DNA from: Fragilaria crotonensis
Taxonomy: Eukaryota; Bacillariophyta; Fragilariophyceae; Fragilariales; Fragilariaceae
Direction of reading: 5' to 3'
Assembly: GCA_022925895.1 (NCBI GenBank)
Contig: JAKSYS010000460.1
Coordinates: 1 to 50,919 of the forward strand
DNA length: 50,919 nucleotides
The notes under the pieces are model-generated. The model did not search any database, had not been told where the DNA came from, and was given only the letters and a program-made list of their open reading frames with translations. Made by a program: the position numbers and the translations under genes. Positions 3,365-20,917 of the stretch are shown here, in pieces; the first letter of the stretch is position 1; the number at the start of each line of letters is the position of its first letter.

Positions 3365-4170
3365 ATGGCGTGTGCTCGCAAAGTCTTTCCGGAGAAAGTC
3401 ATCGCCCATGTGACTGAAGAACTCTCGAAGGTTCCTTGCAATGAACCTGTTCCCAAGGGCATGCTACTTTCGGAATCAATGAAGCGTTCGAGGTTGAAGG
3501 ACACAACAGTAAGTTATCTGCAGGATGAGATCGCTCGCTCCTGCCACTTCAGGTAGAAAACACTCATTTCTCTTTTGTTGATTCACATCAGTTGGTAGAG
3601 ATTACGGTTGACAACGATTCCAAGTCAATTTCGGAAACTGATATCCTTCGAGGTCGTGAGGTCTTGCAGCGGCATCGAGGAACATCGGGAACCATGGTCC
3701 TTGTCGTTCGGAGACCTGGGTGATTCTTCTGCCGCGAGCAGGCACTCTCGCTGTCTGTTCTCGCGGCGCAGATGGACATGAAACAAGACTTTGGAATAAT
3801 AGCAATCATCAAAGAAACTGGTGTCGACAATGAGGGTATTGTGGGATTCCAACACGATTACTTTGACTATCAATTGTACTGCGACAAGACATATGCTTTC
3901 TACCAAGCTCTTGGGGATCGTAAATTGGGTGTCCAGTTCGCTTTGAACCCTCTTGCTTTGCTTGACTTGCTTTGTAATGCCTTTTCCCGCCTCTCGTCGA
4001 AAGGTGTGGAGGGAAATATGGTGGGAGAAGGTTTCACGCAGGGAGGACTGATTTTCTTTGGTCCTGATGGCGAACCAAAATTTGCGTACGAAGAAGAAAC
4101 GGGGAAAGATGTGCCGATCAGAGACCTGGTTGCGGTTATTAATAACATGCGAAGGCTGTCGACCACCTAG
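3365..4170 (+). CDS. Selenoprotein U / PRXL2-type peroxiredoxin-like protein with in-frame UGA (Sec)
   Basis: Exon 1 is 3365..3508 (48 codons) and exon 2 is 3592..4170. The intron 3509..3591 has a GTAAGT donor, a CACATCAG acceptor and phase 0. Exon 2 is open except for TGA at 3721-3723, which falls exactly at the redox position: VVRRPG-U-FFCREQALSL. PRXL2/FAM213/SelU proteins have RRPG(C/U)xxCRxEA here, so this TGA reads as selenocysteine 92 of a UxxC motif with Cys95. The protein is 240 residues, a normal length, with a thioredoxin-like fold continuing as GIIAIIKETG and ending in a GxDGEPKFAYEE-type C-terminal part. The expected role is thiol redox/antioxidant activity. A SECIS lies 16 bases past the stop codon (4187-4240). 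Standard gene callers would end at 3723 or start at 3772, losing the active site. The start is set by an in-frame stop at 3359-3361. Confidence 0.9.
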
Positions 4171-4186
4171 TATGCGAAACCATCTC

Positions 4187-4240
4187 TTGTTGCGAATGAC
4201 ATGGCAACGCAAGTATTGCGTTGTCGTTGACGAGCAATAA
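4187..4240 (+). promoter_or_regulatory. SECIS element (eukaryotic, 3' UTR)
   Basis: All parts of a eukaryotic SECIS can be paired by eye. Helix 1 is TTGTTGC (4187-4193) with GCAATAA (4234-4240), 7 bp including one G-U. The internal loop is GAA against GA. The non-Watson-Crick quartet is TGAC (4197-4200, in the context ATGAC) opposite TGAC (4228-4231), so the tandem G-A/A-G pairs are present. Helix 2 is ATGGCAACGC (4201-4210) with GCGTTGTCGT (4218-4227), 10 bp. The apical loop is AAGTATT, with the required unpaired AA at its 5' side. It recruits SBP2/eEFSec to decode the UGA at 3721 as Sec. The short apical loop suggests a form 1 SECIS. Confidence 0.88.
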
Positions 4241-5663
4241 TAGAAATCAAGTCACTGCTTTCTCGCAAACTCGATGACACCTTTCAATAATGAAAAACAT
4301 GATTGGTCTCGTTCCAGCACAAGACAAAAACTGGGCGTTTAAGTGCGTTGTCAATGCTTCTAACTCTCACCTTTCACGTAGCATTCCTAAATTGTGAAGT
4401 TCGGTGAATTACCGCGTGACAAGGTCACCATTTCTTCTCGGTATATACTTCTGTCCGTATTTATCTTGGTCGAGTCGAAGTTTACTCTACATTCCTGCGT
4501 TCCATGAGCGTCTCGTCGACGTAGCCACTTCATGGCCAAGGGCTGTGACTGCCCAAATGTTGTTGCCAAGTCGTCTTCGAATGATGGCTGCAGCATAGTC
4601 CATTCTTTGGTTAATTCCATACTTACCAGGTATGCTGCTCTGCTGTTGGAACTTCTTTATGCATGAAAATGTCATCTGTCCTCAAGGCTGCACCGCAAGG
4701 CTCTACTACCGAACATGCTTGAATCATGTTGTGAGATCTGAGCCGCAGCTGTGTTTTCCAGAAGGCTCTAGCAAAGCCAAATGATCGGGATTAATTACAA
4801 CCGTATAGCTTCAGTTTCTTGCCAAAGTCTTGGCTTGTTTCCAAGAAAAAAAACTGATTTATCCATCCCCTCTTTGACATGATAAGCTTCAGAGGCGGCA
4901 TCTCGATGCTCGCAGTTCACCATCGACCTCGAGTTGATCCTTCAAGGCGTCTTGGCGTTGTGGATACGACTTTATTTCAAGGGACACGCGCCGCGAAAAC
5001 CGGTGATTAAAGTTGTGGAGACGAAGAGAGCGCGAACCAACTCGATGTTGAAATTGGTGATTGGCGCGATTCGGCTGAGGAACAATTCTGTTGCTATTCG
5101 TCGGAAGAAACCCAGGTCGCACTCCTGACAGCTTCCTCGCGGCTAAGTTGCATTGACCTTGACTGTATCACGATTGCCAAGCTTCACATTTTCTCACGTA
5201 TGCACAGGCATTCAGTCAACTGTTGGCTAGCTTGTGGTTCTTGTAAACAATGAACTTGTATGGTCGATTGATCAATTACTGCGAGCGTTCGTGTCGTTTC
5301 ATCTTTGTTTTACGCATTCTGTACGGCAAATTACTATATTGTCGCTTTATTTAGCAAGATAGTGCATCTGTTGCATTCGAACGACATGAGCTTGAGTTGT
5401 TCTGCGAGCGATACCCTTGTTCCCTGCGATCTCTTGAGAAATAATGTGGACAAAAGATGCGCCAAACTGGGTTTGAAATCGATGCCCTCCCCTCCATCAG
5501 CCGGGTTTATAACATCCCACAATCATCCACGACACCAAGGATTCCATTTTCCCACCGATGATCATGATAACATTGCCGTGCGTGAGCAAGTATCATCAAC
5601 TTCAGTCTGCCTCGTAACGGTGTCCTACAGCATTATCATTAGTGAACGCAAGTGTACCCTCAC
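4241..5663. other. Intergenic, no gene recognised
   Basis: About 1.4 kb between the SECIS and the end of gatC. Several ORFs of 60-120 codons exist on both strands (for example 4934-5128 and 5305-5667) but overlap each other, share no motif with known families and have no clear splice partners. An unrecognised short gene around 4.9-5.3 kb is possible. Confidence 0.35.
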
Positions 5664-18615: not shown

Positions 18616-20917
18616 ATGCCAAGAGTCGATCCTCGTTTCGTGATTGGAGCAAGGGTGCAGGCGAAAGCTCACCATGTGACATCACTGTCTGAGTGTCACC
18701 GAAGATACGGAGCCAACGCCAAAACGAAGCACGTTATCGGGACTGTGACTTCAGTAAATTCAGTCCCCTCGACCAACAACAAGCGTGCTGTCACTCTCAT
18801 CACCGCAGCTTACGAGCTTGGTGGTGGTACTATCAAGGAGTTGTGCTTGAATTCGCGATCAATCAAGTTGGCAGAAGAGGGATCGACGACAAACCCAAGT
18901 AATGAACCCGTGACTGGACTCGAATGGAAACGACGCTCCCATCGACGACGCAATTGGAGCTCATGTCGCAAGAGTGAGCAATGAAGAGATGGCTGCAGCT
19001 CTCGAGAGCTCAGATGAGGAGGTCGAGGACGAGGTAAGAGCTGCTGAGACGACAAGAATTGCAGCTGCTGCAGCAGCTTTGTTGCATTGCCAGGAGGGCC
19101 ACCGCAAGGACCAGCAGGACCCTCCCTTTGTTGCAACTGTTCACGATGTACACTGGCGTGCGTCAGCCGCCACTGAACCACCATTGAATGGTGCTGTTCC
19201 TCCTCGTCAATGGAGTGTCAGGACTGCTGTGGGAGATGTCTTGGTTCCAGGAGCAGGAACAAACGTAGCCGCCGTGTCTGAGATGTCAGGGCTGGATTTT
19301 TTCTTCTCATGTTCCCTCCAAAGCAACTCAGGGCCATGGTCGAATTGACTAACACCGAATTGATTAAGTTGGAGCTGCAAACCACAAACACCTCTGAAAT
19401 ACTCAAATTCTTTGGCCTCTTGATCTTGATAACGACGTACGAGTTTACGTCCAGGGCAAGCTTGTGGGCGACGACGGCACAAATGAAGTATAGACCAGCA
19501 CCTCACTTTGGTCGCACAGGAATGTCAAGAAAACGATTCGACGACTTGTTTCGGGCAGTAAGGTGGAGTAAACAACCTGCTGAACGTGAACAGCAGGACG
19601 AATGTTCAGAGGTACACAGGTGGAAGTTGGTGGATGACTTCGTCGATGCATTCAATGAACATCGAGCAAATTTCTTTGTTCCGTCGGATCACATTTGTGT
19701 TGACGAGTCCATGAGCCGTTGGTACGGCCAGGGAGGCCATTGGATCAACCATGGCCTCCCACAATACGTTGCAATCGATCGCAAGCCTGAGAATGGCTGC
19801 GAAATCCAGAACTCTGCTTGTGGTCGGAGCGGTGTGATGCTTCGTCTAAAGTTGGTGAAGGGTGCTGACCTCGTTGGTGAGGAGGACGAAAATCAAGGGA
19901 ACCAGGAGGTCGGTCTGTTGCATGGTACTCAAGTCTTGAAACACGTTGTCTCACCCTGGTTTGGAACCAATCGAATTGTTTGTGCAGACTCCTACTTTGC
20001 TTCGGTCGGCGCAGCGAAGGAGCTTTATCGAAACGGACTTCGATTCATTGGCGTCGTCAAGACGGCCACGAAAGGATTTCCAAAATCCTATCTCACGAAC
20101 GTTGAACTCCATGAACGCGGCGACTTCCATGCCGTAGCTTCCGACAAGACTGACGCTATGGATCCTGATATGGCTGCCTTTGTGTGGATGGATCGTGAGC
20201 GCCGGTATTTCATTGCAACGGCAGGCAGTCTTGCGGAGGAACACCATATACTCGTTGTCGCTGGCGGCAAGTGAACCGTGCTCCAAACGCAGCTCCAGAG
20301 AGGTAATCATGACAATCAAGCAACCTCAAATTGCAGAAGTCTACTATGATACTTGTGGGGCTATTGACCGTCACAATCGATACCGACAGGACGACCTTCG
20401 AATGGAAAAGAAGGTCGAGACAAAGGATTGGTCGGTAAGAGTCAATCTATCTATTTTTTCCATGATTGTTGTCGATACATGGCTTGTTTTCAATGCATTC
20501 AAGAATGCCCCAGACCTTCTTGCGGGCAAAAAAGCGATTCTGCAGAAGGACTTCTATGCAATGCTTGCAGAGGAGTTGATTGACAATACCTACGGCAGCA
20601 GCATCAGCAGTGCACGGCGACCGAGGTCGTCACCGACCAACTATCAAGATGCGTGCATGAGGGCGCTGGAAAATGGATCTGCACGCGCTGGTGTCCTCAC
20701 TCATTTAACTCCAGTCAAGAGGCTTAAGACTTCTGGAGGTAAAGCAACGAATCATCGGTACCAAGGGCGATGCAGAGAGTGTCAGAAGAAGTCAACTTGG
20801 CAATGCAGCGACTGCGGCGACAGTGGAAAAACGGTGTTTCTTTGCTCAACAATATATGGCAAACGGTGCTTTTTGGACCACATTGCTCGCAACCATGCAC
20901 ACATAGATGAAGAATAA
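18616..20917 (+). pseudogene. PGBD (piggyBac) transposase, frame-broken
   Basis: The product is readable but spread over three frames. 18616-about 18915 gives an N-terminal beta-rich domain (VIGTVTSV, YELGGGTIKELCLNSRSIK). A shifted frame to about 19290 is acidic and Ala-rich. From about 19290 the DDE_Tnp_1_7 core begins (LLMFPPKQLRAMVELTN, KFFGLLILIT, HICVDESMSRWYG with an active-site Asp, IVCADSYFAS with another). After about 20265 it continues in another frame (EVYYDTCGAIDRHNRYRQDD, DWSVRVNLSIFSMIVVDTW) and ends in a Cys-rich tail (CRECQKKSTWQCSDC). One break falls in a six-T run (19290-19296) where one extra T restores the frame; two more lie around 20265-20310. All domains and probable catalytic Asp residues survive, so decay is recent or partly sequencing error. 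Confidence 0.8.

Follow-up and report, generated by a model that had tools for sequence, protein, structure and literature searches.

We propose that a nuclear gene of the diatom Fragilaria crotonensis very probably encodes a selenocysteine-containing member of the SelU/PRXL2 (AhpC-TSA_2) family, in which an in-frame UGA would be read as selenocysteine (Sec). The proposal is based on what can be read from the sequence, namely the open frame, its intron, the homology, the position of the TGA, a hairpin beyond the stop codon and an eEFSec gene in the same genome. The locus lies in a stretch of 50,919 bases, hereafter the window, which is contig C403 of the 62.1 Mb, 881-contig assembly that was searched (Table 1). 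A comparison of the plastid EF-Tu, in which 8000 proteins were scored, also points to a diatom: the nearest matches reach 95–98% identity, and among the 120 listed the one that bears a species name is the diatom Asterionellopsis glacialis at 90%. A first-pass annotation had described it as a SelU gene with a recoded TGA, and the gene model, the family assignment, the TGA, the additional exon and the hairpin all stand as sequence evidence for that description.

Gene model and redox site

The only in-frame stops in frame 3592–4170 (+) are the TGA at 3721–3723 and the terminal TAG, which confirms the earlier claim that this TGA alone breaks the frame. The product of the joined exons has 240 residues, as does the full-length relative P0002, and the junction between the two exon peptides (LKDTT/LVEIT) matches that of P0002 without extra residues. 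Six in-frame acceptors are listed and the P0002 junction is given by the one at 3590–3591 alone. The exon 1 peptide is identical to P0002 at 43 of 48 positions, to P0008 at 24 and to P0015, a record from the diatom Grammatophora oceanica (NCBI taxid 210454), at 21, and it is this peptide in P0002, together with the identical junction, that supports the spliced N-terminal exon suggested in the first-pass annotation. Within exon 2, identity to P0002 is 37/43 upstream of the TGA and 119/148 downstream, and conservation as a single protein thus extends over both halves. The strand opposite exon 2 contains an antisense open frame of 195 codons (window 3625–4212, –), which is probably a by-product of the coding sequence. 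At a distance from the gene, the window also carries a transposase frame (DDE_Tnp_1_7, 19309–20274, +, Pfam E 3e-35), which we take to be of the piggyBac type.

Table 1. Features of the putative SelU gene and its 3' hairpin, in window coordinates
Feature	Position	Strand	Description
Exon 1	3365..3508	+	48 codons from ATG 3365; conserved N-terminal extension
Intron	3509..3591	+	83 nt, GT-AG, phase 0; donor GTAAGT at 3509, acceptor AG 3590-3591
Exon 2	3592..4170	+	PRXL2/SelU thioredoxin-fold domain; TAG at end
In-frame TGA, putative Sec codon	3721..3723	+	Exon 2 residue 44 = joined-protein residue 92
TGC, Cys codon of the UxxC motif, putative resolving residue	3730..3732	+
SECIS-like element	4183..4244	+	ATGA 4196-4199, AA 4211-4212, TGA 4228-4230
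Helices of the SECIS-like element	helix II 4201-4212/4216-4227; helix I 4187-4193/4234-4240	+

The family assignment comes from the match of exon 2 to the Pfam AhpC-TSA_2 model (PF13911; E 7.3e-16, 59 bits against a cut-off of 27), which spans residues 54–169, downstream of the TGA site. A genome search for a second PF13911 gene gave four candidates, with a match at the present locus alone. The TGA corresponds to the U of the redox motif RRPG-U-FFC; in PRXL2/SelU proteins a Cys or Sec opens the C/UxxC motif that follows RRPG, an arrangement also seen in the relatives. The solved relatives recognized by sequence at E ≤ 0.001 are two structures of human prostamide/prostaglandin F synthase, 9us9 and 9usa, and no others. 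Exon 2 residue 44, the one encoded by the TGA, has as its counterpart a Cys in 9us9 (chain position 44) and a Ser in 9usa, which is titled as the C44S/C47S mutant. This alignment with Cys44, along with the Cys found at the site in 10 relatives, places the TGA exactly at the PRXL2/SelU redox Cys/Sec, as had been claimed on first reading.

The AlphaFold2 model, built with 36 sequences, has a mean pLDDT of 79.9, with residues 110–120 and 122–147 below 50, and residue 44 is predicted to lie immediately before the helix formed by residues 45–60. The best Foldseek match of the model among PDB structures is 9usa (E 1.7e-6, TM 0.52/0.61, rmsd 9.3 over 184 columns), the model being of low confidence at residues 110–147. 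The two human structures together head the results with E from 1.7e-6 to 6.2e-6 at an rmsd of 8.3–9.9, so the superposition is loose overall, and among the 50 matches listed peroxiredoxins and thioredoxin-like proteins rank after them. The predicted fold is thus thioredoxin-like and matches the solved PRXL2 structure. The diatom protein would have this fold in common with human prostamide/prostaglandin F synthase (PRXL2B), its U44 and C47 aligning with Cys 44 and Cys 47; the human enzyme, however, has Cys where the present gene would have Sec, and at 20–22% identity its substrate is not transferable. A weak profile match to the SelL-related redox protein (NF040769; 19.5 bits, E 0.00059) falls far under the 120-bit cut-off.

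The SECIS-like hairpin and the Sec machinery

The hairpin begins 12 nt beyond the terminal TAG, and its ATGA follows the recoded TGA at a distance of 472 nt. Folding of the RNA from 4175 to 4260 gives –24.4 kcal/mol (z = –2.6), and none of 200 shuffled sequences was as stable. The ATGA faces the TGA of the opposite arm, 11 nt separate it from the AA, and helix I has 7 pairs. The AA of a canonical SECIS lies in the apical loop, whereas the minimum-energy fold obtained here, with 12 pairs and a loop of 3, has it base-paired at the tip, where it would need to open. A custom SECIS scan, using rules written after the candidate had been seen, picked out the hairpin and nothing else on either strand of the window when at least 9 of 10 helix II pairs and at least 6 helix I pairs were required. 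In simulated single-strand sequence with the dinucleotide frequencies of the window, the same setting gave 2 matches in 1.02 Mb and a stricter one (≥10/≥7) none in 1.02 Mb, while a looser scan of the window itself (≥8/≥5) gave six, two on the plus strand and four on the minus strand. Rfam gave no SECIS family above its gathering cut-off in the whole window, and at E ≤ 10 between 3900 and 4500 it gave no SECIS and a single match, to an enterobacterial sRNA model (E 0.89, 4195–4232). The full SECIS that had been claimed is supported by the stable hairpin and the strict scan match, and not by an Rfam SECIS family.

The first-pass annotation had also held that the organism has Sec machinery and had named eEFSec, SelD and tRNA-Sec for a genome search. 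The case for eEFSec is clear: it is a 781-aa open frame on contig C415 (locus L008) with both PF21208 and PF21131, the models of eukaryotic SelB domain III and eEFSec domain IV, and it matches human eEFSec (5izk) with E 4.7e-124. A PSTK-like kinase on contig C482 (L034) is a candidate, matching TIGR03575 with E 2.5e-24 and 86 bits, below the cut-off of 382. SelD was found above cut-off as a domain (262 bits against 125), solely within a fusion on contig C753 (L006:79-2643, +), where a pyridine nucleotide-disulfide oxidoreductase and SelD, the latter with CGAK, form one 855-aa frame. This frame also matches the model for the oxidoreductase/SelD-related fusion protein (fusion_not_SelD) with 367 bits against a cut-off of 700, and the selD model has no match elsewhere in the assembly. 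The Sec machinery that had been implied is therefore seen in large part, with eEFSec clear, PSTK as a candidate and SelD as a fusion; SepSecS and tRNA-Sec were not found in the searches described below.

An independent sign of Sec use comes from a GPx gene (L020, G000:C76:97959-98174, –), a second selenoprotein candidate, with an in-frame TGA within NVASQ-U-GLT, the usual Sec site of GPx. Rfam gave no SECIS match in this locus, and a SECIS candidate 3' of the gene was set aside as not convincing (z –0.2, 77 of 200 shuffles folding as well). The loose SECIS scan gave one match in locus L023 and none in four other GPx loci scanned.

As for the missing components, SepSecS had no match with PF05889 or TIGR03531 in the 881-contig assembly. 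For tRNA-Sec, the Rfam model RF01852 gave none above cut-off among the 53 of 5073 candidates that were scored, the control genomes containing no eukaryote, and of the pattern searches one had no match at all. Four RF01852 matches below cut-off, all on contig C881, were identified by ARAGORN as Leu, Leu, Ser and Gly tRNAs, and the candidates from other patterns (3 and 8) had no tRNA in their loci by ARAGORN with the bacterial code. The patterns would miss a gene with an intron in the anticodon loop. Because few candidates were scored, no eukaryote served as control and the assembly may be incomplete, we do not read the missing tRNA-Sec and SepSecS as a loss; an assembly gap or the limited search is the likeliest explanation. 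It is also conceivable, and in our view very unlikely, that the tRNA-Sec and the Sec synthase which serve to decode the UGA as Sec are diverged or non-orthologous, a reading suggested by a genome in which SepSecS and tRNA-Sec went unrecognized although it has eEFSec, at least two redox genes with a TGA (SelU and GPx) and a PSTK-like kinase. One publication mentions both a predicted tRNA-Sec in the diatom Fragilariopsis cylindrus and an intron-containing tRNA-Sec in Daphnia (PMC5330540).

Relatives and other readings of the TGA

Thirty-five proteins among 241 candidates were found with the single sequence, and 72 among 6745, the first 35 included, with a profile made from the query (P0001) and 7 of the 35. 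When these 72 relatives are aligned, 13 have a residue at the TGA site (10 Cys and 3 Trp), one has a gap and 58 start past the TGA codon, 43 of them with Met. Records that begin past the site are what results when gene finders take the TGA as a stop, although truncation on short contigs can inflate the count of 58, the relatives being compared as protein records. P0004, a 132-aa sequence with 99% identity that represents 8 member sequences and 5 contigs, starts at the first Met past the TGA, and with so many relatives also starting after the site, the suspicion that this locus is probably mis-annotated proved well founded. The closest full-length relative with Cys is P0002, at 82% identity. 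Searches for relatives outside this set gave 5 and 9 pattern matches in viral contigs (queries P0001 and A1) and 57 in prokaryote genome contigs (query A2), none of which was confirmed.

The history of the site was followed on a tree of 72 rows, which comprised P0001 and every homolog except P0189 (28% identical over an alignment covering 36% of the query), with no vertebrate reference set; a row was labeled TGA-like by inference when its record was truncated, had Trp or showed a gap. Seven changes between the Cys and TGA-like states are required, at least five of them forced by well-supported branches, while shuffled labels average 9.5; with a bootstrap that had not settled and the possible false joining of some long branches, the seven changes are only suggestive. 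Judging from the tree, Sec forms and Cys forms seem to be close relatives within the family. On the same tree P0010, which has Trp, is sister to P0157 with support of 100/99, and since P0157 is recorded only after the site, the Trp in P0010 is probably a translation of TGA by software.

These data bear on three further readings. The locus might be a recent pseudogene or truncated allele, derived from a gene that once had Cys at the site and now genuinely stops at the TGA, as could be argued from the Cys of the closest full-length relative and from the tRNA-Sec and SepSecS that were not found. We regard this as very unlikely given that there is no further in-frame stop, that the TGA falls exactly on the expected Sec site with a SECIS-like hairpin at the expected place, and that the same interruption is apparent in many relatives. 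Highly improbable, in turn, is that the residue inserted at the UGA is Trp or some other one instead of Sec, whether through code reassignment or through plain read-through: Trp does occur at the site in three of the 72 relatives, but it would have no redox role there, that of P0010 probably originates from translation software as its grouping with P0157 indicates, and both the SECIS and eEFSec would be left unexplained. A sequencing or assembly error at this one codon is exceedingly improbable, for although TGA is one base from TGC and TGT, the near-identical P0004, with its several member sequences and contigs, also starts at the first Met past the site, and a SECIS would not go along with an error.

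Proposed decoding and relation to known SelU proteins

The reading that we prefer is that the UGA specifies Sec, and we envisage the following sequence of events. On the spliced mRNA the ribosome would reach the UGA at codon 92, where the type-I-like SECIS in the 3' UTR would recruit SBP2, whose presence we assume, and eEFSec carrying Sec-tRNA(Sec), such that the UGA is decoded and Sec presumably inserted. Together with the Cys three residues on, the Sec would form a UxxC selenenylsulfide redox center at the N-terminus of the thioredoxin-fold helix, and the outcome may be a peroxiredoxin-like or thiol oxidoreductase activity.

SelU proteins with Sec have been described in diatoms before and rank among the most widespread algal selenoproteins. 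Published work lists two SelU selenoproteins in Thalassiosira pseudonana (PMC2375036), and reports that more than half of 36 algal genomes contain Sec forms of GPX, SELENOU, SELENOT and TXNRD and that the number of selenoprotein genes in diatoms is between 20 and 44 (PMC7539508). The present gene would have in common with the SelU (SELENOU) of T. pseudonana and other algae its family, the combination of UGA and SECIS and the diatom or algal host, a likeness drawn from those publications. Vertebrate SelU1 (PRXL2A) offers a further parallel in that Sec and Cys are exchanged at one site in both, and the present gene is placed at the level of the SelU/PRXL2 family. According to PMC3316567, the vertebrate Sec forms all belong to SelU1, which underwent a Sec-to-Cys conversion in mammals, as did SelU1b in stickleback.

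As Sec-containing SelU proteins of diatoms and other algae have already been published, the finding is conventional and of low surprise, and the present gene leaves existing knowledge of selenoproteins unchanged. It provides a clean example of a gene cut short by standard annotation, and the closely related Sec and Cys forms that the family seems to hold would lend themselves to work on Sec/Cys exchange in diatoms.
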